64,000 bases of DNA from NCBI RefSeq assembly GCF_007989825.1, contig NZ_BJUA01000006.1:124001-188000 (forward strand), written 5' to 3'. Each line of letters opens with the position of its first letter. Position 1 is the first letter of the stretch. Below the pieces are notes generated by a model. That model was not told the DNA's origin, searched no databases, and saw only the letters and a program-made list of their open reading frames with translations. This document shows, one piece after another, positions 49,716 through 58,826 of this stretch. Made by a program: the position numbers and the translations under genes. The stretch comes from Cellulomonas persica (GTDB lineage: Bacteria > Actinomycetota > Actinomycetes > Actinomycetales > Cellulomonadaceae).

Positions 49716-50555
49716 TCATGACTCGCGCGTGATGCGGACCTCGACCGCCAGCTCCTGCGTCCCGGCACCTGCGTAGATGCCGCGCAGCGGCGCGACGTCG
49801 TCGTACGAGCGCCCGCGCGCCAGCACGACGTGGTGCGCGCCCGCCGGGATGCGGTTCGTGGGGTCGTAGGCGACCCAGTCGCCCACCCACCACTCGACCC
49901 ACGCGTGCGACTCGCCCGTGACGGTCTCCCCGACCTCGCCGCCGCGGGTGGGGTGCAGGTACCCCGACACGTAGCGTGCGGGGATGCCGAGCGACCGCAG
50001 CGCGCCGAGCGCGAGGTGCGCCACGTCCTGGCACACGCCGGCCTTGGCCTGCCACGCCTCGGCGGCGGGCGTGTGCACCGCGGTCACCCCGGGGATGTAC
50101 TCGACCCGGTCGCGCAGCGCGCCGCACACCGCGACCGCCGCGTCCGCGGGAGCCAGCCCGTCGGCCTCGGCGGCCGCGAGCGCCACGACCTCCTGCGGCG
50201 GCTCGGTCGTCGGCGTGTCGGCGAGGAACTCGGCCATCCGGTCGCGCACGTCCGCGCTCGCGAGCCCGTCCCAGTCCAGCACCGTGCGCGGCGGGGCGGC
50301 GTCACCTGTCTCGACGACGTGCTCGGCGGTGATGACCATCGACTCGTGCGGGACCAGCACCTCGAACACCGTGACGGCCGTGCCCCAGTAGTCGCGGTAC
50401 TCGTGCGACCACGTGTGGGGTCGCACCTCGAGGTGTGACGAGACCACGGTCTGACCCGCCTGCGACACCGGCGTCATGCGCGCCTCGTTGTAGGACGCCT
50501 GGACCGGCGCCGCGTAACGGAACGTCGAGGTGTGCACCACGCGCAGCCGGCTCAC
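49716..50555 (-). CDS. transglutaminase-family protein of the ATP-grasp/alpha-E module
   Basis: A 279-residue protein. An N-terminal Bact_transglu_N beta domain (about residues 1-90, LRVVHTSTFRYAAPVQASYNEARMTP) is followed by a transglutaminase-like protease core. The triad is visible: Cys in KAGVCQDVAHLAL (near residue 174), His in GESHAWVEWW and Asp in AYDPTN. Unlike the TgpA-like protein at 12108-14528, all three residues are present. The GTG at 50555 overlaps the alpha-E stop. In many bacteria this gene is linked to an alpha-E protein and a circularly permuted ATP-grasp, and the set is predicted to make and cut peptide modifications. Confidence 0.92.
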   Translation of the reverse strand: MSRLRVVHTSTFRYAAPVQASYNEARMTPVSQAGQTVVSSHLEVRPHTWSHEYRDYWGTAVTVFEVLVPHESMVITAEHVVETGDAAPPRTVLDWDGLASADVRDRMAEFLADTPTTEPPQEVVALAAAEADGLAPADAAVAVCGALRDRVEYIPGVTAVHTPAAEAWQAKAGVCQDVAHLALGALRSLGIPARYVSGYLHPTRGGEVGETVTGESHAWVEWWVGDWVAYDPTNRIPAGAHHVVLARGRSYDDVAPLRGIYAGAGTQELAVEVRITRES

Positions 50556-51481
50556 AGGTTCTCCCCCACCCAGGTCGTCGCGGCGGCCGACGGGAAGTAC
50601 TTCCCGCGCACCGCGTCGGACGCGGCCGCGCACGCACGCTGCACCTGCTCCATCTCGTGCGGCAACGAGTCCAGGATGTCGGCGAGCGGCCGGTACTCGA
50701 GGTTGGTGCGCACCAGTCCGAGGTGCCGACGGGCGTCGTCGACGGTCGCCCGGTCGACCACGGGCTCGAGCGCCGCGAGGCACGCGTCCGCCTGGTCGAG
50801 CGCGTACACGATCGAGCGCGGGAACAGCCGGTCGAGCAGCAGGAACCCGGCCGCGCGCTCGTCGGAGGCGATCCCCCGGTACGTGCGCAGGAACGCCTCG
50901 TGCGCACCGCACGAGCGCAGCAACGTCGTCCAGCCCGGACCACCCGTGCCCGCGAGCGCACGGGTCATGAGCAGGCGCGCCGTCATGTCGGCACGCTCGA
51001 TCGACCGGCCGAGCACGAGGAACGCCCACGTCTCGTCGCGCGAGATCGTCGCCTCGATGATCCCCGCGACCACCGCGGCGCGCTCGCGCACCCACGTGAA
51101 GTAGTCGTGCGGCCGGGCGGGCCGCATGTGCGACGGCAGCTGGTTCCACGTCGCGTTCAGGCTCTCCCACAGCTCGGTCGAGATGACCTCGCGGGCACGT
51201 CGGGCGTTCTCGCGCGCCGCGACGAGCGCACCGGCGATCGACGACGGCGAGAACCGGTCGTACGCGAGCACGTCGAGCACCTCGACGCGGCCGATCGCGA
51301 CGTCGTCGGGCGGCGTCGGCCGGTCCATGACGGACAGGAGCGAGCGGCACGCGAGGTCGACCTCGGCCCACGGGTCCTCGAGCAGGATCTGCAGGTGCAC
51401 GTCGAGCAGGCGTGCGGTGTCGTCGGACCGCTCGACGTACCGACCGATCCAGAACAGCGACTCGGCGATGCGGCTCAGCAC
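50552..51481 (-). CDS. alpha-E domain-containing protein
   Basis: A 309-residue all-helical protein of the alpha-E (DUF403) family. The opening MLSRIAESLFWIGRYVERSDDTARLLDVHL is the family signature, and the repeated AFLVLGRSIERADMTARLL near the middle is a second copy of the same helix. Catalytic activity is not established; these proteins travel with circularly permuted ATP-grasp enzymes and transglutaminase-like peptidases. It overlaps the ATP-grasp stop by seven bases and the transglutaminase start by four, so the trio is coupled. Confidence 0.94.
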   Translation of the reverse strand: MLSRIAESLFWIGRYVERSDDTARLLDVHLQILLEDPWAEVDLACRSLLSVMDRPTPPDDVAIGRVEVLDVLAYDRFSPSSIAGALVAARENARRAREVISTELWESLNATWNQLPSHMRPARPHDYFTWVRERAAVVAGIIEATISRDETWAFLVLGRSIERADMTARLLMTRALAGTGGPGWTTLLRSCGAHEAFLRTYRGIASDERAAGFLLLDRLFPRSIVYALDQADACLAALEPVVDRATVDDARRHLGLVRTNLEYRPLADILDSLPHEMEQVQRACAAASDAVRGKYFPSAAATTWVGENL

Positions 51482-53082
51482 CCGTCCACCTCCCTGCCTG
51501 CGTCCGGCTCAGGAGCCGGGCGCACGTCGAGCAGCGACTGCTGCTGCTGCATGACGTGCGCGCGGATGTCGTGCGGGTTCGCCTCGATGGGGACGGCGTT
51601 GCCCACGGGCACCGGGTGGTGCTGCGCGGGCGCCGCGGCGCGCCGCGGGGGCGACCCGCCGAGCACCCACGTGTCCTTCGACCCACCACCCTGCGAGGAG
51701 TTCACGACGAGCCTCCCCTCGGGCAGCGCGACGCGCGTCAGCCCACCCGGCAGCACCCACACGTCGTCGCCGTCGTTGACCGCGAACGGCCGCAGGTCGG
51801 TGTGGCGCGGCCGCAGGCCGTCGTCGACGAGCGTCGGCACGGTCGACAGCTGCACCACGGGCTGCGCGATCCAGCCACGCGGGTCCGCGAGCAGCCGCGA
51901 GCGCAGCGCGCCGAGCTCCTCCGTGGACGCCGCCGGGCCCACGACGAGACCCTTGCCGCCGGAGCCGTCGACCGGCTTCACGACGAGCTCGTCGAGCCGG
52001 TCGAGCACCTCCTCGAGCGAACCCGGCTCCTCGAGGCGCCACGTGTCGACGTTCGCGAGGATCGGCTCCTCGCCGAGGTAGTAGCGGATGAGGTCCGGCA
52101 CGTAGGTGTAGACGAGCTTGTCGTCGGCCACGCCGTTGCCCACCGCGTTCGCGATCGTCACGGTGCCGTTGCGCGCGCACGTCATGAGGCCCGGCGACCC
52201 CAGCAACGAGTCCGCGCGGAACGTCACCGGGTCGAGGAACTCGTCGTCCACACGCCGGTAGATCACGTCGACGCGACGCCGGCCCTGCGTCGTGCGCATC
52301 CACACGCGCCCGCCCGCGCAGAACAGGTCACGCCCTTCGACGAGCTCGACGCCCATCGTCCGGGCGAGCAGCGAGTGCTCGAAGTAGGCGCTGTTGTAGA
52401 CGCCCGGCGTGAGGACGACGACCGTCGGCTCGTCGACGCCCGCGGGGGCGGCGGCCGTGAGCGCGGCCAGCAGACGACGCGGGTAGTCCGAGACCGGCCG
52501 GATGCGCAGCGCGGCGAAGAGCTCGGGGAAGCTCTGCGCCATCGCGCGGCGGTTCGACAGCACGTAGCTCACGCCGCTCGGGACGCGCACGTTGTCCTCG
52601 AGAACGCGCCAGCCACCGAGCGAGTCGCGGATGAGGTCGATGCCCGACACGTGCACCCGCACCCCGTTCGGCGGCGTGATGCCCCGAGCCGCCCGGCAGT
52701 AGTTCGTCGACGAGACGACGACCGAGCGCGGCAGCACGCCGTCGGCGATCACGCGCTGCGGCCCGTACACGTCCGCGAGGAACGCCTCGAGCGCGCGCAC
52801 GCGCTGCGCGACGCCCGGCGCGACGTGGTCCCACTCGTCGGCCGCCAGCACCCGCGGCACGACGTCCAGCGGGAACGGCCGCTCCTCGCCCGCGAAGTCG
52901 AACGTCACGCCCTGGGTCAGGTAGGACCGCGCGAGCGCGTCGGCGCGCGCCCGCAGCTCGCCTGCCGAGAGCTGCGCGAGCGCCGCGTGCACCTGCCGGT
53001 ACGCCGCGCGGGGGCCGGTCGCCGTGTCGAGCATCTCGTCCCAGGCGACCCCGGCCGGGTAGTCGTCGAAGAGGTCCGCCAT
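51475..53082 (-). CDS. circularly permuted type 2 ATP-grasp protein
   Basis: A 535-residue circularly permuted ATP-grasp enzyme. It contains the N-terminal GVTFDFAGEERPFPLDVVPRV, then RGITPPNGVRVHVSGIDLIRD, VLEDNVRVPSGVSYVLSNR, LTPGVYNSAYFEH, and the nucleotide-binding VVKPVDGSGGKGLVVGP. ATP-grasp enzymes of this type are predicted to ligate amino acids or peptides to an unknown acceptor. The ATG at 53082 begins the short lead to DYPAGVAWDEM; an earlier start would add nine residues. It is the first gene of the ATP-grasp/alpha-E/transglutaminase unit, divergent from the PemK-like gene. The last 60 residues form an Ala/Pro-rich tail ending in a Gln-rich stretch. Confidence 0.94.
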   Translation of the reverse strand: MADLFDDYPAGVAWDEMLDTATGPRAAYRQVHAALAQLSAGELRARADALARSYLTQGVTFDFAGEERPFPLDVVPRVLAADEWDHVAPGVAQRVRALEAFLADVYGPQRVIADGVLPRSVVVSSTNYCRAARGITPPNGVRVHVSGIDLIRDSLGGWRVLEDNVRVPSGVSYVLSNRRAMAQSFPELFAALRIRPVSDYPRRLLAALTAAAPAGVDEPTVVVLTPGVYNSAYFEHSLLARTMGVELVEGRDLFCAGGRVWMRTTQGRRRVDVIYRRVDDEFLDPVTFRADSLLGSPGLMTCARNGTVTIANAVGNGVADDKLVYTYVPDLIRYYLGEEPILANVDTWRLEEPGSLEEVLDRLDELVVKPVDGSGGKGLVVGPAASTEELGALRSRLLADPRGWIAQPVVQLSTVPTLVDDGLRPRHTDLRPFAVNDGDDVWVLPGGLTRVALPEGRLVVNSSQGGGSKDTWVLGGSPPRRAAAPAQHHPVPVGNAVPIEANPHDIRAHVMQQQQSLLDVRPAPEPDAGREVDGC

Positions 53083-53226
53083 GGGCCGAACGTAGCCCCG
53101 CCGTGTCAACGGCGCGTTACGTCGCGCTCGACCGGTCCCGCCGACGACGCGCGTGCCCGGCTGAGGCGCCGCAGGTCACCCGGCGACTGTCGTCGAGCGC
53201 TCGTCGACTTCGCTAGGTTCTGAGCC

Positions 53227-53838
53227 GTGCCTGGTTCCTCCCGCTGGTCATCGGTGCTGCGTCAGGCGGCCGTGAGCGTCCTCGACTCGCTGACCCGACG
53301 ACGCACCTCCGCCGGTCCGGCGACACGGACGGTCCCCGGCACGACGCCGGGCCGTCGCGGGACGACCGTCCGTCAGCCGGGCAGGACTGCGAGCCACGCC
53401 TCGCGCGGGCCCGTGACCGCGCCGGAGCGCGTCGTGCTCCCCGACCACACCGGGCCAGTCCGGTGCGAGTACAGCCCCGAGCTCGACGGCGCGGCGGACC
53501 CCGGCGAGATCGTGTGGACCTGGGTGCCGTACGAGGAGGACCCGACCCAGGGCAAGGACCGCCCCGTCCTCGTCGTCGGCTGGCACGGCCCGCACGTGCT
53601 CGGCCTCATGCTCACGAGCAAGGACCACGACCGCGACGCCGCGCGCGAGGCCCGCCGCGGCCGCATCTGGCTCGACATCGGCTCCGGCCCGTGGGACAGC
53701 AGGCGTCGCGACAGCGAGGTCCGCCTCGACCGGGTCCTGTCTCTGGACCCCGCGACGATCCGGCGCGAGGGCGCGATCGTCGACCCCGCGCTGTTCGCCC
53801 GCGTGACGGACGCGCTCGCCGAGCTGCGGGGGCGTTGA
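53227..53838 (+). CDS. orphan PemK/MazF-like protein
   Basis: A 203-residue protein. The first 70 residues are Arg/Ser/Thr/Pro-rich and probably disordered. The rest (about 75-200) matches the PemK/MazF family of toxin endoribonucleases: ADPGEIVWTWVPYEEDPTQGKDRPVLVVG opens the barrel, followed by LGLMLTSKDHD. No antitoxin gene is next to it; both flanks are unrelated (ATP-grasp gene divergent, rpsT downstream). It may be a standalone conserved relative rather than half of a toxin-antitoxin pair. The GTG at 53227 is the earliest in-frame start after the divergent spacer, and the true start could lie further in. Confidence 0.78.
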   Translation: MPGSSRWSSVLRQAAVSVLDSLTRRRTSAGPATRTVPGTTPGRRGTTVRQPGRTASHASRGPVTAPERVVLPDHTGPVRCEYSPELDGAADPGEIVWTWVPYEEDPTQGKDRPVLVVGWHGPHVLGLMLTSKDHDRDAAREARRGRIWLDIGSGPWDSRRRDSEVRLDRVLSLDPATIRREGAIVDPALFARVTDALAELRGR

Positions 53839-54066: not shown

Positions 54067-54327
54067 GTGGCGAACATCAAGTCCCAGATCAAGCGCATCC
54101 GCACCAACGAGAAGGCGCGCCTGCGCAACAAGTCGGTCAAGTCGGAGCTCAAGACGCACGTCCGTCGCGTCCGCGAGGCCGTCGCCGGCGGCGACAAGGA
54201 GGCGGCGACGACCGCCCTGCAGACCGCGTCGAAGAAGCTCGACAAGGCTGTGAGCAAGGGCGTCATCCACGCCAACCAGGCCGCGAACAAGAAGTCGGCG
54301 CTCGCGAAGGCCGTCAACACGCTCTGA
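54067..54327 (+). CDS. rpsT: 30S ribosomal protein S20
   Basis: An 86-residue basic helical protein, standard for S20. It begins [29 protein letters not shown] (in two parts) and ends [12 protein letters not shown]. It binds 16S rRNA early in 30S assembly. The GTG at 54067 gives the conserved ANIKSQ start; an earlier TTG would add 20 unrelated residues. A perfect hairpin follows the stop. Confidence 0.97.
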
Positions 54328-54394: not shown

Positions 54395-54566
54395 TCGTCT
54401 CGGCAGTCGCGCCCTGCACCGTCCACCGCCCTGGAGGTCCCCACGACCCGCGTCGGGCGCGACATGCCGGACGACTCGCCGGACCCGGGATGAATCGTTT
54501 CCTTCCCACGATTTCCACCCGCTCGAACGACCGAGCCGCCGCGTGCGGTGTGGTCGAATGGGAAAC

Positions 54567-55292
54567 GTGACGGACGACCTCGACGAAGCGGGCCTCCGGC
54601 GCCTCGCGGCTGCAGTCGACGACGCGATCCCGGGACCTCTGCGCACCCAGTGGGAAGCACACGTGTCGACGTCGCCCGTGCTCGTCGCGCGACAGGGCAT
54701 CTTCACGTCGTCGGGGCAACCGGTCGCGTACGAGTTCTCGTACCGCTCGTGCCACGGGGAGTCGCTCGGCGCGTCCGAGTGGAACGCGCACCAGCACGAG
54801 CGCGCCACGTCCCACGTCCTCGCGGCGACGTTCGGCCGCGCCGACCTCGAGCGCGTCGCCAACGGCCGCCTGCTGTTCGTCCGGTGCACGCGGGCCTACC
54901 TCGTGGGCGAGCTCCCTGTGCCCCGCCGTCCCGACCGGCTCGTCATCGTCGTCCCCGACACGGTCCCGATCGACGCCGAGGTGCTCGCGGGCGTGCGGCG
55001 CCTGCGGACCGAGGGCTACCGGTTCGCACTCCCGTCGTTCGTGAGCAGCCCCGCACAGCGCCGCCTGCTCCCCCACGCGGACTACGTCAAGGTGGACGTC
55101 CGCGACCTCGACGTGGAGGGCCATCCCGTCGTCACGCTCGCACGCTCGTACGGCGCGAGCCTCATCGCGGAGTACGTCGAGACGCCCGAGGCGATGGCGC
55201 ACGCACGCGACCTCGGACTCACCTTGTTCCAGGGCAACCTCCTCGAGCGCGCGGGCGTGCTCGACCGCGCGAGCGCGCAGATCGTCGACTGA
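54567..55292 (+). CDS. degenerate EAL-domain protein
   Basis: A 241-residue protein whose residues about 35-240 have the EAL (c-di-GMP phosphodiesterase) fold. Several key positions are changed: EFSYR (Glu56) at the EAL motif, Arg106 where Asn is expected (FVRC), VVP in place of the next Glu motif (near 128-131), and Pro156-Ser157 where the Asp pair should be. Lys175 (VKVD), Glu202 (AEYVE) and Gln222 (FQG) remain. It is therefore probably not an active phosphodiesterase. The GTG at 54567 shares a GGGAAAC lead with the paralogue downstream (AGGAAAC); an ATG at 54558 is the alternative. The second EAL-like gene starts 28 bases after the stop. Confidence 0.78.
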   Translation: MTDDLDEAGLRRLAAAVDDAIPGPLRTQWEAHVSTSPVLVARQGIFTSSGQPVAYEFSYRSCHGESLGASEWNAHQHERATSHVLAATFGRADLERVANGRLLFVRCTRAYLVGELPVPRRPDRLVIVVPDTVPIDAEVLAGVRRLRTEGYRFALPSFVSSPAQRRLLPHADYVKVDVRDLDVEGHPVVTLARSYGASLIAEYVETPEAMAHARDLGLTLFQGNLLERAGVLDRASAQIVD

Positions 55293-55320
55293 CGCGGCTG
55301 TCGACGGGCGCTGAGGAAAC

Positions 55321-55986
55321 GTGTCACGCGAAACGGCGTCATGGACCGCGTGCCAGGCCCTCTCATCGAGCGTGACACCACACGCGCACGCGCCGCGGCC
55401 CTCACCGCCGCAGGTCGCGCGCCAGCCCATCTGGTCCCCCGCGGGCGACCTGCACGGCTACGAGCTGCTCTACCGCACGGCGGACGGCACACCCGCCGGC
55501 GTCGATCGCTGGGACGAGGACCGTCAGGAGGACGCCACCGAGGCCGTCCTGGCGCGCATCGCGAGCATGAAGCTCGGCAGCGCGCTCGCGTTCGTCAACG
55601 TGACCCGCGGCTACCTGGTCGAGTCCCGCACCCTCCCCCCGCACCGCGGGCAGCTCGTGCTCGAGGTGCTCGAGACCGTCCCGGCCGACGAGGGCTCGCT
55701 CGCCGGCCTGACCCGCTTGCGGGACGCCGGCTACCGGCTGGCCCTCGACGACTTCACCGCGTCCGCCGCGCAGCTGGCGATGCTGCCCTGGGCCGACTAC
55801 GTCAAGATCGACTGCCGTGACCTGCTGCAGCACGGCAGCGCGCTCGTCGAGCTCGCCCGCAGCTCGGGAGCGCAGGTCATCGCCGAGCGCGTCAGCGACC
55901 GCGCGCTCGTCGACCACTGCGTCGCGTGGGGCTTCGACCTCCTGCAGGGCGACGTCCTCGGCCCCGCGGCGACGCTCCGGAGCTGA
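55321..55986 (+). CDS. EAL-domain protein with key residues kept
   Basis: A 221-residue single-domain EAL protein, adjacent to and paralogous with the degenerate copy upstream. The Glu of the EAL motif (ELLYR, Glu48), Asn93, Glu115, Asp143-Asp144 (LALDDF), Lys162 (VKID), Glu189 (AERV) and Gln209 (LQG) are all present. The loop after LALDDF is TASAAQ rather than the FGTGYSS of canonical enzymes, a feature of the YuxH/CdgJ-like group, so activity is uncertain. It has no GGDEF, sensor or membrane segment. Possible roles are c-di-GMP hydrolysis, c-di-GMP sensing, or a heteromer with the upstream protein. A short GC-rich stem (GGGGC-CTTC-GCCCC, 55987-56000) follows the stop. Confidence 0.8.
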   Translation: MSRETASWTACQALSSSVTPHAHAPRPSPPQVARQPIWSPAGDLHGYELLYRTADGTPAGVDRWDEDRQEDATEAVLARIASMKLGSALAFVNVTRGYLVESRTLPPHRGQLVLEVLETVPADEGSLAGLTRLRDAGYRLALDDFTASAAQLAMLPWADYVKIDCRDLLQHGSALVELARSSGAQVIAERVSDRALVDHCVAWGFDLLQGDVLGPAATLRS

Positions 55987-56025: not shown

Positions 56026-57093
56026 CTAGTCGCGCGACGCTGCTGCGACGCGCAGGACGGCGCGCTCGACGGCGAACTGCGGGTCGCGCCCCTCGCCCTT
56101 GACCTCGGCGTCCGCGGCGGCCACCGCGCCGATCGCGGCCGCGAGACCCTCGGGCGTCCACGTGCGCAGCTCGCGCAACGCGCGGTCCACCTGCCACGGC
56201 GCCAGGCCGAGCTCGCGCAACGCTCCCTGGCCCTTGCTCCGGGTCGCTCCGACCTTGGCGAGCGTGCGCAGCTTCGTCGCGAGCGCGGCGACGATCGGCA
56301 CCGGGTCCAGGCCCGTCGCGAGCGCGTGCCGCAGCAGCGCGACCGCCTGACCCGCGTCGCCGGCGATTGCCGCGTCGGCCACGCGGAAGCCGGTCGCCTC
56401 GATCCGACCGCCGTAGTAGCGCTCGACCGCCTCGACCCCGATCATCCCGGTCGTGTCCGCGACGAGCTGCGCGCACGAGGCCGCGAGCTCGCGCAGGTCG
56501 CTGCCGACCGCGTCGACGAGCGCCCGCACCGCACCGGCGTCCGCACGGCGACCGGCCCGCTTGAGCTCGGCCATGACGAACGCCGTCTTGTCGGCGTCCG
56601 ACGTCACGGCGTCGCACGTCACCTCGGGCACCTTCGCCGCTCGGAGCGCGTCGAGCGTCTTCTTCCCGCGCACTCCTCCGCCGTGCCGCAGCACGAGGAC
56701 CACGCCGGGCGCCGGGGCCGGCAGGTAGGCCTGCACGTCGGCGAACAGGTCGTCCGGGCCCTGCTCGACGCCGTCGACCACCACGACCTTGTCCTCGGCG
56801 AACAGCGACGGGCTCGTGGTCACGCCGAGCATCCCGGCGGAGTACGACGCGGCGTCCAGGCGCGTGATCTCGACGTCCGGGTCGGCCTCGCGCGCGAGCG
56901 ACACGATGCGCTCGGTCGCGCGGTCGACGAGCAGCCCCTCCGTCCCGCGGACCAGGACGATCGGCGCAGGAGCGGCTTCCTCCCACGTCAGCCCTGGCGC
57001 CCCGCCCTTGGCTCCCGAGCGGCCCGCGCCGGAGCGGGACGAGCCTGCACGGGTCGTGCTCGAGGAACGGCTGGAACGGGTCGGGGCGGGCAC
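56026..57093 (-). CDS. holA: DNA polymerase III subunit delta
   Basis: A 355-residue HolA, the clamp-loader subunit that opens the beta clamp. The first 36 residues are Ser/Arg-rich and not conserved. The core follows the family: IVLVRGTEGLLVDRATERI, VTTSPSLFAEDKVVVVDGVE, a central VVLVLRHGGGVRGKKT and the C-terminal helical part (GDAGQAVALLRHALATGLDPVPIVAALA). The GTG at 57093 is the only good start ahead of the core and overlaps the comEC reading frame by 106 bases, which is unusual. The comEA-comEC-holA order is common in actinobacteria, and holA is the last gene of this cluster. Confidence 0.92.
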   Translation of the reverse strand: MPAPTRSSRSSSTTRAGSSRSGAGRSGAKGGAPGLTWEEAAPAPIVLVRGTEGLLVDRATERIVSLAREADPDVEITRLDAASYSAGMLGVTTSPSLFAEDKVVVVDGVEQGPDDLFADVQAYLPAPAPGVVLVLRHGGGVRGKKTLDALRAAKVPEVTCDAVTSDADKTAFVMAELKRAGRRADAGAVRALVDAVGSDLRELAASCAQLVADTTGMIGVEAVERYYGGRIEATGFRVADAAIAGDAGQAVALLRHALATGLDPVPIVAALATKLRTLAKVGATRSKGQGALRELGLAPWQVDRALRELRTWTPEGLAAAIGAVAAADAEVKGEGRDPQFAVERAVLRVAAASRD

Positions 57094-58826
57094 GGGTCCA
57101 GCCTGCCAGACCCCGCCGACACCCCGCGTCGCGCACCCAGCAGGAGCCGGGCGGCGGCCACCCCGACGGCGGCCAGCAGCAGTGTGCCGGTGACGCCCGG
57201 CAGCCACTCGAGCTGCGCACCCGGCAGGCTCGCACACCGGCGTGCGACTGCCCCGATCCACCAGCACGCGGCGCCCGCCGCGGCGGACACGGGTGGCGCG
57301 AGAGCGGGCCACCACGGTGCGAGGACCGCCGAGAGCAGGCCGAGCAGCGTCGCCGGAGCCACCGCAGGGGCGGCGACGACGTTCGCCACGACGCCCCACG
57401 GCGTCACCGAGCCGCTGACCGCGAGCACGACCGGCCCGCAGGTCAGCTGGGCGGCGACGGGCACGGCGAGCGCCGTGGCGGGACCTGTGCCGAGCCGCCC
57501 CGACCAGCGCCGTGCGAGCGGTCCGCCGAGCAGCACGATCCCTGCGGTCGCGGCGACGGACAGCGCGAACCCGAGCTCGCCCGCGAGCCACGGGTCGGCG
57601 ACCAGCAGCACGACGACGGCGGCGCCGAGCGCCGCGGGCGAGCGTGCGGGCCGTCCCGCCGCGAGGCCGACGACACCCACCGCCCCCATGGCCGCCGCCC
57701 GCACGACGCTCGGCGCGGGGTGGACGAGGACGAGCATCGCGAGCGTCACGCCCGCGGTCGCGAGCGCCTGCATGCGCGGTGAAGCGCGCAGCGCCGCGCC
57801 GGTCGCCAGGACGAGCGCCGCGACGAGCGCGAAGTGCGCGCCCGAGACCGCCACGAGGTGCGTGAGGCCCGACGCCCTCATCGCGTCCGTGAGGTCGTCC
57901 GGGACCGCGCTCGTGTCGCCGACGGTCACGCCGGGCAGCAGCGCGCGTGCGTCGCCGGGCAGGTCGTCGGCGAGCATCCGCACACCGGCACGGACGCGGG
58001 CCGCGAGGGCGTCCCACGCACGCGGGGAGGCGCGGACCGTCACGGGTCCCGAGGCGACGAGCACCGCGACCTCGCGTGCGCCGGGTGTCCCGGCCCGCAG
58101 CCGTCCGGCGACCGCGACGACCGCGCCGTAGGCGGCGCGTTCCGACGGGTCCCCCAGCACGGCGACCTGCCCGCTGGCCGCCGAGGTCCGGCCGTCCGAG
58201 GCGCCGCTGCCCCCGGTCACGCTGCCCCCGACCACGTTGCCCCCGGCCCCGTTGCCCGTGGTCACGCTGCTCGCAGCGAGCACCCACCGGACGCGCGGCG
58301 GCGCGCCGGGCCACGTCGCGCGCACCGGTTGGGGCTCACCGACCACGCGTCCGACGAGGACCCCGGCGCCCTGGGTCCGTGCGAGCTCGGGGAGCAGCCC
58401 GTGCGCACGGGCGTCGACCTGCGCGGCCCCCGCACCCGCCACGCACGCGGCGGTGAGCAACGCGAGCGCGCCCACCGATCGGCACGACTCCCGCGACGCG
58501 CCGCCCCACCGCCGCCGAAGCCCGATCAGGCCAGCTGCCAGGCCGGCGAGCGCGAGCACCGCCGTGGTGACGAGCGCACCCGCGGCGGGCGCACGGACGA
58601 CGAGCAGCGCGGCGACCCACGCGGCCGCCGCGGCGGGCACGAGCCGCAGGTCGAGCGTCCGCACGGGCTCGACGGTGGGCGCGACGACCTGAGTCCCGCC
58701 CGCGGACCCGTCGGCCGTCCCGGCGCTTGCGGATGACGCGTCAGAAGCCCCGACGCCCGCGGATGACGCGTCGGACGTCCCGCCCTCCGGGGACGGCGCA
58801 GGCGACGCGCCGACGCGCGCGCTCAC
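56988..58826 (-). CDS. comEC: ComEC/Rec2-type competence protein lacking the C-terminal metallo-beta-lactamase domain
   Basis: A 612-residue membrane protein of the ComEC/Rec2 family, which forms the channel for single-stranded DNA uptake. It has N-terminal helices (about residues 65-140), a DUF4131-like beta region, and the Competence domain (about 270-550) with LTHLVAVSGAHFALVAALV, RAAAMGAVGVVGLAAGRPAR and GELGFALSVAATAGIVLLGGPL. Many family members end in a metallo-beta-lactamase-like nuclease domain; here there is none, only a 55-residue Pro/Arg-rich tail that overlaps holA. Natural competence is not proven by this gene. The GTG at 58826 overlaps the comEA stop (GTGA). Confidence 0.88.
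   Translation of the reverse strand: MSARVGASPAPSPEGGTSDASSAGVGASDASSASAGTADGSAGGTQVVAPTVEPVRTLDLRLVPAAAAAWVAALLVVRAPAAGALVTTAVLALAGLAAGLIGLRRRWGGASRESCRSVGALALLTAACVAGAGAAQVDARAHGLLPELARTQGAGVLVGRVVGEPQPVRATWPGAPPRVRWVLAASSVTTGNGAGGNVVGGSVTGGSGASDGRTSAASGQVAVLGDPSERAAYGAVVAVAGRLRAGTPGAREVAVLVASGPVTVRASPRAWDALAARVRAGVRMLADDLPGDARALLPGVTVGDTSAVPDDLTDAMRASGLTHLVAVSGAHFALVAALVLATGAALRASPRMQALATAGVTLAMLVLVHPAPSVVRAAAMGAVGVVGLAAGRPARSPAALGAAVVVLLVADPWLAGELGFALSVAATAGIVLLGGPLARRWSGRLGTGPATALAVPVAAQLTCGPVVLAVSGSVTPWGVVANVVAAPAVAPATLLGLLSAVLAPWWPALAPPVSAAAGAACWWIGAVARRCASLPGAQLEWLPGVTGTLLLAAVGVAAARLLLGARRGVSAGSGRLDPCPPRPVPAVPRARPVQARPAPARAAREPRAGRQG

Follow-up and report, generated by a model that had tools for sequence, protein, structure and literature searches.

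Two EAL genes lie side by side in Cellulomonas persica, and one of them has lost residues on which catalysis depends. How did this pair arise, and what does the degenerate member do? We studied the pair in a stretch of 64,000 nucleotides, hereafter called the window, and in the equivalent loci of related genomes. The original prediction was of two EAL reading frames on the same strand, seemingly related by duplication and divergence and possibly forming an active or sensing subunit with a dead partner. Both frames exist and match the Pfam EAL family (PF00563) above its gathering cut-off of 31.3 bits, copy 1 with 34.7 bits and copy 2 with 52.1 bits, and the two proteins are 43% identical. No HDOD domain accompanies either of them: EAL was the only domain found in the Pfam search, at E-values of up to 1. 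The features of the locus are the following:

54067..54327, plus strand: rpsT, ribosomal protein S20, the left landmark (Pfam Ribosomal_S20p, synteny)
54549..54571, plus strand: remnant of a conserved element at the copy-1 start, TGTGGTGTCATAG-N4-5-ATGAC in other Cellulomonas, whose inverted repeat is lost here (upstream comparison)
54567..55292, plus strand: copy 1, a degenerate EAL protein of 241 aa (Pfam EAL, residue table, start by comparison, structure model)
55336..55371, plus strand: DNA before copy 2, GCGTCATG ... CTCTCATC, which recurs in part of the relatives (upstream comparison)
55372..55986, plus strand: copy 2, an EAL protein of 204 aa with the full catalytic set (Pfam EAL, residue table, start by comparison, structure model)
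56026..57093, minus strand: holA, DNA polymerase III delta, the right landmark, convergent and with an approximate start (Pfam DNA_pol3_delta_C in the frame 56029-58314, synteny)

Comparison of the upstream regions changed part of the initial description of the genes. In the window, copy 1 probably starts at GTG 54567, a position at which most of its relatives begin with Met-Thr; an in-frame ATG at 54558 is a possible alternative. A GTG is found 17-19 codons 5' of a QPI motif in 29 of the 42 copy-2 loci, and in 22 of these 42 an in-frame stop 20-29 codons 5' of the motif rules out a start equivalent to position 55321, the one originally proposed for copy 2. Hence, GTG 55372 is the most likely start of copy 2; with this start, the gap between the genes is 79 bp instead of 28, and the proteins are 241 and 204 aa long. 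The GGAAAC-GTG start context said to be shared by the two copies is present at both places in the window. However, it is missing in C. gelida, which, among the named genomes of the collection, has the relative closest to copy 1 (93% identity), and its second occurrence is at the doubtful start. We therefore take it as a coincidence.

A list of 13 functional residues of EAL domains is available in the consulted part of PMC11537037. At the aligned key positions, copy 1 of the window reads E-R-V-D-P-S-K-D-E-Q and copy 2 reads E-N-E-E-D-D-K-D-E-Q. These are the residues read originally: copy 1 has lost the Asn, the middle Glu, and the Asp pair, and copy 2 keeps the Glu, Asn, Glu, Asp-Asp, Lys, Glu, and Gln. 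We presume here that the listed residues correspond to the RocR numbers and alignment columns to which we assigned them. In the window, the Arg at the catalytic Asn position is encoded by codon 54882-54884 and the Pro-Ser at the Asp pair by codons 55032-55037. The Asn metal ligand is replaced by Arg in all 86 copy-1 rows of the alignment, the equivalent of Asp295 is lost in all of them (Pro in 67, Ala in 14, Ser in 3, Arg in 2), and the position of Asp296 is always Gly, Ala, Ser, or Asn. Copy 1 is thus without the Asn and Asp metal ligands of catalytic EAL phosphodiesterases in every row. Other losses are less uniform. The Glu of the EAL motif is retained in 28 of the 86 rows (Gln in 56), the loop-6 Glu in just 2, and Glu265 in 80, the other 6 rows having Val and including the window and its nearest relatives.

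Much of the remaining site has been kept. The Lys is retained in 84 of the 86 rows and the KxD Asp (180), Glu352, Gln372, and Gly in all of them. On the substrate side, three of four residues are retained, with Gln 46 and Arg 63 conserved in 100% of the rows; the second substrate Asp is lost throughout. Copy 1 has also acquired residues of its own: at 18 positions, of which 16 lie in the EAL domain, it is at least 93% conserved with a residue that differs from the commonest one in both copy 2 and the singletons described below (e.g., His 80, Arg 109, Arg 124, Asp 126, Asp 185, Glu 187, Pro 190, and Asn 227, in a numbering of 244 residues). In copy 2, no metal, substrate, or base residue is lost in any of the 54 rows, apart from one row that is cut short ahead of the EAL Glu. 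The loop that follows its Asp pair, DDFTASAAQ, deviates from what we take to be the canonical loop-6 motif, as had been noticed at first. The same holds, among the rows listed, for 17/17 of the singleton, g4, and EAL-HDOD rows in which an Asp pair is present, which makes the deviation a trait of the lineage.

Judged by these residues, copy 1 should not hydrolyse c-di-GMP. Copy 2 has what a phosphodiesterase requires, except for a canonical loop 6, and is probably active. It is very improbable that both are ordinary phosphodiesterases, with a non-standard active site in copy 1: the retention of Glu352, Lys, and Gln would fit such an enzyme, but the metal ligands Asn and Asp are lost in 86/86 rows, and EAL domains are counted as inactive when they lack the catalytic residues and their loop 6 is degenerate (PMC11537037, in the part consulted).

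The AlphaFold models, computed from alignments of the window and named-genome sequences, are confident and have an EAL fold for both copy 1 (pLDDT 89.4, pTM 0.83) and copy 2 (pLDDT 86.5, pTM 0.82). The best match in the PDB is YahA in both cases (Z 19.4, rmsd 2.8 over 198 residues for copy 1; Z 20.4, rmsd 2.4 over 196 residues for copy 2). The active site of EAL domains is located at the C-terminal ends of the barrel strands. In the DSSP string of the copy-1 model, the Arg, the equivalents of Lys, Glu352, and Gln372, and the position of Glu265 are at or near these ends.

A search for the whole family gave matches in 101 of the 221 genomes, and all 81 genomes of the genus are among them. We read the loci of the window and of 79 other genomes of the genus (G056 was left out), plus some from other genera. 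These loci are flanked by rpsT and holA wherever the contig is long enough to show it. Of the 80 genus loci, 79 have copy 1, the exception (L088) being at a contig end, and so do 7/7 loci of the genus g4. Copy 2 accompanies it in 52 of the 79 genus loci and is absent from the other 27. In a g4 genome, copy 1 is followed by an EAL gene fragment (L123:2087-2323, minus strand), possibly a decaying copy 2. The same place between rpsT and holA is occupied by single EAL genes in the genera g2 and g18 and at 17 loci of the family f9 (one of them, L181, broken into two pieces). The catalytic residues of these singletons are mostly intact (22 singletons in the conservation table, L181 left out). Farther from the pair, the window encodes a PemK/MazF-like toxin domain upstream of rpsT (53416-53838, plus strand, 46.4 bits) and adjoining genes for circularly permuted ATP-grasp, Alpha-E, and transglutaminase-like proteins (49716-53109, minus strand). 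A PADLOC search had no match at E 0.01, and an antiphage role is without backing.

To infer the family tree, we reduced 194 rows to 99 by removing those with fewer than 150 aa, L181 (two pieces), L123_2087m, and L134, and then near-copies. The outgroup consists of EAL-HDOD proteins (the HDOD domain was confirmed in 7/7 of those tested). All copy-1 rows fall into a single clade (SH-aLRT 100), and this clade groups with the singletons of g18, which are intact (96). Copy 1 thus most simply stems from an intact EAL protein, with a single loss of the catalytic set. Within the genus, copy 2 also forms a clade (99), which groups with the second copies of g4 (88), and the singletons of f9 are outside both copies. 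Hence, the copies represent two clades of the same family that share a locus between rpsT and holA, and the duplication with divergence put forward originally is supported by the phylogeny of both. A recent duplication within one species is rejected because both clades include the second genus, g4. The presence of copy 2 changes 10 times along the copy-1 tree, and at least 4 of the changes are forced by strongly supported branches.

Copy 1 is, by sequence, the more constrained copy in most comparisons. Over 1653 genome pairs, mean identity is 0.697 for copy 1 vs 0.584 for copy 2, and copy 1 is above copy 2 in 1462 pairs and below it in 180. We computed dN/dS for the 1206 of 1378 pairs with dS within 0.05-0.9: copy 1 has the lower dN in 1068/1206 and the median dN/dS is 0.35 for copy 1 vs 0.53 for copy 2, for pairs that are non-independent and, in many cases, probably near saturation in dS. 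Between the window and L056, dN/dS is 0.078 for copy 1 and 0.132 for copy 2. The order is the opposite in many pairs involving a deep clade that consists mostly of metagenome genomes (L043, L086, L096, and L099), where copy 1 evolves faster than copy 2. These rates bear on whether copy 1 could be a pseudogene in decay, a reading suggested by its lost catalytic residues and to which we give next to no credence. We reject it because the frame is open across the aligned domain in 86/86 rows and dN/dS vs L056 is low; the new near-invariant residues also speak against decay.

Distribution and rates together weigh on the idea of an active subunit with a dead partner. The idea holds insofar as copy 2 keeps its residues and copy 1 consistently does not. 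In its strict form, copies 1 and 2 would be an obligate heterodimer in which copy 1 modulates copy 2. The copies are adjacent, homologous, and on the same strand, EAL proteins are described as dimers (in the consulted part of PMC3510510), copy 2 occurs without copy 1 only at a contig end, and the 12 loci without the regulator described below all keep both. However, relatives with a single copy, part of what the original prediction had held to count against itself, do occur: 27 of the 79 genus loci have copy 1 alone. Since copy 2 also changes its presence 10 times on the tree and copy 1 evolves more slowly, an obligate heterodimer is unsupported. The retention of the loop-6 Glu in 2/86 copy-1 sequences argues against it too, and we regard it as distinctly unlikely.

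Another candidate partner is encoded upstream of copy 1 in most of the genus. It is a 440-aa protein with HTH_3 and TPR domains, hereafter the regulator, whose gene is divergent to copy 1 in 73 of the 85 assessable copy-1 loci (in L101 and L108, identity to the query is just 37-39%). It is missing next to copy 1 in the window and its clade: the 12 loci without the regulator make up one clade that holds the window (support 83), which takes a single change on the tree. In the genome of the window, XRE-TPR matches are no more than weak (34 and 39% over at most 120 residues). All 27 assessable copy-1 loci without copy 2 carry the regulator, and all 12 loci without the regulator carry both copies, a pattern that is suggestive only, because the regulator was lost in a single event. 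The same regulator family is found near EAL genes in other orders in the genus g2 (L119:2498-6093, minus strand, and L116 and L117). In L119, the regulator is probably between two EAL genes, and the orders in g2 hint at a route by which the module was assembled.

The regulator goes along with a motif at the copy-1 start. An inverted repeat, TGTCAT-N7-ATGAC (or GTGAC), partly overlaps the start codon and the Thr codon of copy 1 in 64/73 loci with the regulator vs 0/12 without it. A form with N6 is present in 4 more loci with the regulator and in 2 without it, which leaves 5 and 10 loci, respectively, with neither form. These counts leave out L088, L116-L119, and L121, and L045, a contig-end locus that has the repeat, is counted apart. 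The element abuts the start codon, with no obvious Shine-Dalgarno site, and is nearly unique in the genome (window and L205-L262 equivalents). A 13-base form, TGTGNTGTCATNG, occurs 72 times in 66 of the 81 genomes and its reversed control 0 times. By coordinates, 64 of the 72 occurrences are at copy 1 (one of them in G056), and the other 8 are elsewhere or on unplaced contigs of G074. As TGTGNTGTCATNG is almost exclusive to copy 1, no wider regulon is seen in the 81 genomes at the stringency of this pattern scan. TGTCAT-N7-ATGAC itself is found in 63 of the 81 genomes, mostly at copy 1 and at about 20 sites elsewhere, with one match for the reversed control. The simplest reading is that the facing gene encodes a dedicated regulator and the element is its putative site, both lost in the clade of the window. 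Because the regulator was lost once, the link between its loss and that of the site rests on one clade. The element could alternatively be a special promoter with a leaderless start. A search for the pattern before copy 2, GCGTCATG ... CTCTCATC, gave 20 listed rows from 58 named loci, 42 of them with copy 2; this region is a possible operator or promoter, perhaps copy 2's own.

Our preferred explanation, held with moderate confidence, is that copy 1 is a conserved non-hydrolytic EAL protein that works through a partner protein, originally most likely the facing regulator, and that copy 2, a dispensable paralogue, is probably a phosphodiesterase. Copy 1 would be a pseudo-phosphodiesterase that acts, in the way of BluF or YdiV, by binding its partner, perhaps under the control of c-di-GMP. 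The divergently encoded XRE-HTH/TPR regulator would be its likeliest partner and controller in most Cellulomonas, acting by way of the inverted repeat at the start codon of copy 1, an arrangement reminiscent of BluF antagonising BluR in E. coli, and copy 2 would be the paralogue that probably cleaves c-di-GMP. Copy 1 is better conserved, has fixed residues of its own, and mostly faces a regulator, which points to an enzyme turned regulator and not to a decaying spare. A protein partner is favoured by the facing regulator and by the newly fixed residues, and gating by c-di-GMP may be possible given the retained substrate side. Signalling by c-di-GMP is likely present across the genus, since GGDEF domains are found in 81/81 of its genomes. 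Several points stand against our explanation. The proposed partner is absent from the window's genome itself, 5 loci with the regulator have the repeat in neither form, copy 1 is often the faster copy in the deep clade, and it keeps most of its substrate side, unlike BluF and YdiV. As the clade of the window lost the regulator and its site and kept both copies, copy 1 would have a further role or partner there.

The conserved substrate side also raises the possibility that copy 1 is a c-di-GMP receptor in the manner of LapD and FimX, binding the nucleotide without cleaving it, perhaps metal-free, and signalling to a partner. Gln 46, Arg 63, the KxD Asp 180, Glu352, and Gln372 are kept in 86/86 rows and the Lys in 84, and by our own count copy 1 retains more of the named sites than FimX (4/10; consulted part of PMC3527489). 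The loss of the second substrate Asp in 86/86 rows argues against this, and the Arg may block the pocket. We consider a receptor unlikely as the whole account, although it is compatible with, and partly contained in, our preferred explanation. A bolder proposal, which we hold to be rather unlikely, gives the Arg a function: the invariant Arg would replace the catalytic metal, yielding an 'arginine-for-metal' EAL protein that would read c-di-GMP without cofactor or cleavage and set the activity of the XRE-TPR regulator. This Arg would sit at the barrel mouth among the retained Glu (Val in the window), Lys, Glu, and Gln.

A similar change is seen in another group of the family. The window's own genome encodes, near flagellin, a protein with an HDOD domain (Pfam) and a degenerate EAL part (G000:C24:4344-5528; L003:784-2727, minus strand). 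The N-terminal part of this flagellar-cluster protein has no Pfam EAL match at E 0.01, yet it can be aligned to copies 1 and 2. Among the best 30 loci of this flagellar EAL-HDOD group, Arg occupies the Asn position in 29/30. The EAL Glu and Asp295 are both lost in 30/30, and Glu265 is kept in 29, the Lys in 29, Gln372 in 30, Glu352 in 25, and Asp296 in 21. The same Arg swap in these relatives may thus reflect a recurrent route to EAL receptors. The free tree separates copy 1 from the flagellar group, but an AU test, from which L119_2498m was dropped and for which copies 1 and 2 were thinned, does not reject a single origin with both in one clade (p-AU 0.31). We therefore do not claim that the Arg swap arose independently. 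A flagellar role for the pair itself is unsupported: flagellin is found in 60/81 genus genomes vs a match to the EAL family in 81/81.

EAL-only proteins without catalytic residues are common (450 of 1805 in a survey quoted in the consulted part of PMC3510510), and the role of most of them is unclear. Copy 1 is a genus-wide and slowly evolving example. Across species, it occurs with or without an intact paralogue, flagellin, and the facing regulator, a natural series in which the idea derived from BluF and YdiV, of a phosphodiesterase becoming a protein-binding regulator, can be tested in actinobacteria. It also raises the question of whether the role of the metal in an EAL pocket can be taken over by an Arg. 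Among the titles and abstract openings listed in searches of an open-licence library, none named the Cellulomonas EAL pair or a pairing of XRE-TPR and EAL proteins.

The known systems, compared here from the consulted parts of the cited papers, each share some traits with this locus. Actinobacterial EAL-HDOD proteins are the neighbour clade of the EAL-only family in our tree; phosphodiesterases of this type, such as the active enzyme ZpdA, have the HDOD domain that copies 1 and 2 lack (PMC12607878). LapD and FimX have an EAL fold in which the metal site is altered, as in copy 1, and catalysis is weak or absent, as predicted for copy 1, and their degenerate EAL domains bind c-di-GMP. However, they are multidomain GGDEF-EAL proteins and not the products of tandem EAL-only genes (PMC3032553, PMC3527489). 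YdiV of E. coli (3tlq) and STM1697 (5hxg) are stand-alone degenerate EAL proteins like copy 1, and both bind a transcription regulator (STM1697 according to the title of its structure entry); YdiV has lost 8 of 10 key residues, more than copy 1 (PMC3510510). Neither YdiV nor BluF binds c-di-GMP (PMC3509220, PMC3510510). BluF (YcgF) of E. coli, which antagonises the regulator BluR (YcgE), differs from copy 1 in having a BLUF light domain and a MerR-like regulator, where copy 1 consists of EAL only and faces an XRE-TPR regulator, absent in the window. BluF has lost all four c-di-GMP-binding residues (PMC3509220); copy 1 retains three of four substrate residues. The likeness between the two is twofold: BluF is a degenerate EAL protein whose gene adjoins that of a dedicated transcription regulator, as copy 1 adjoins a putative one in 73 of the 85 assessable loci but not in the window, and, as proposed for copy 1, it was adapted from a phosphodiesterase, with an intact homologue also present in some species (PMC3509220).
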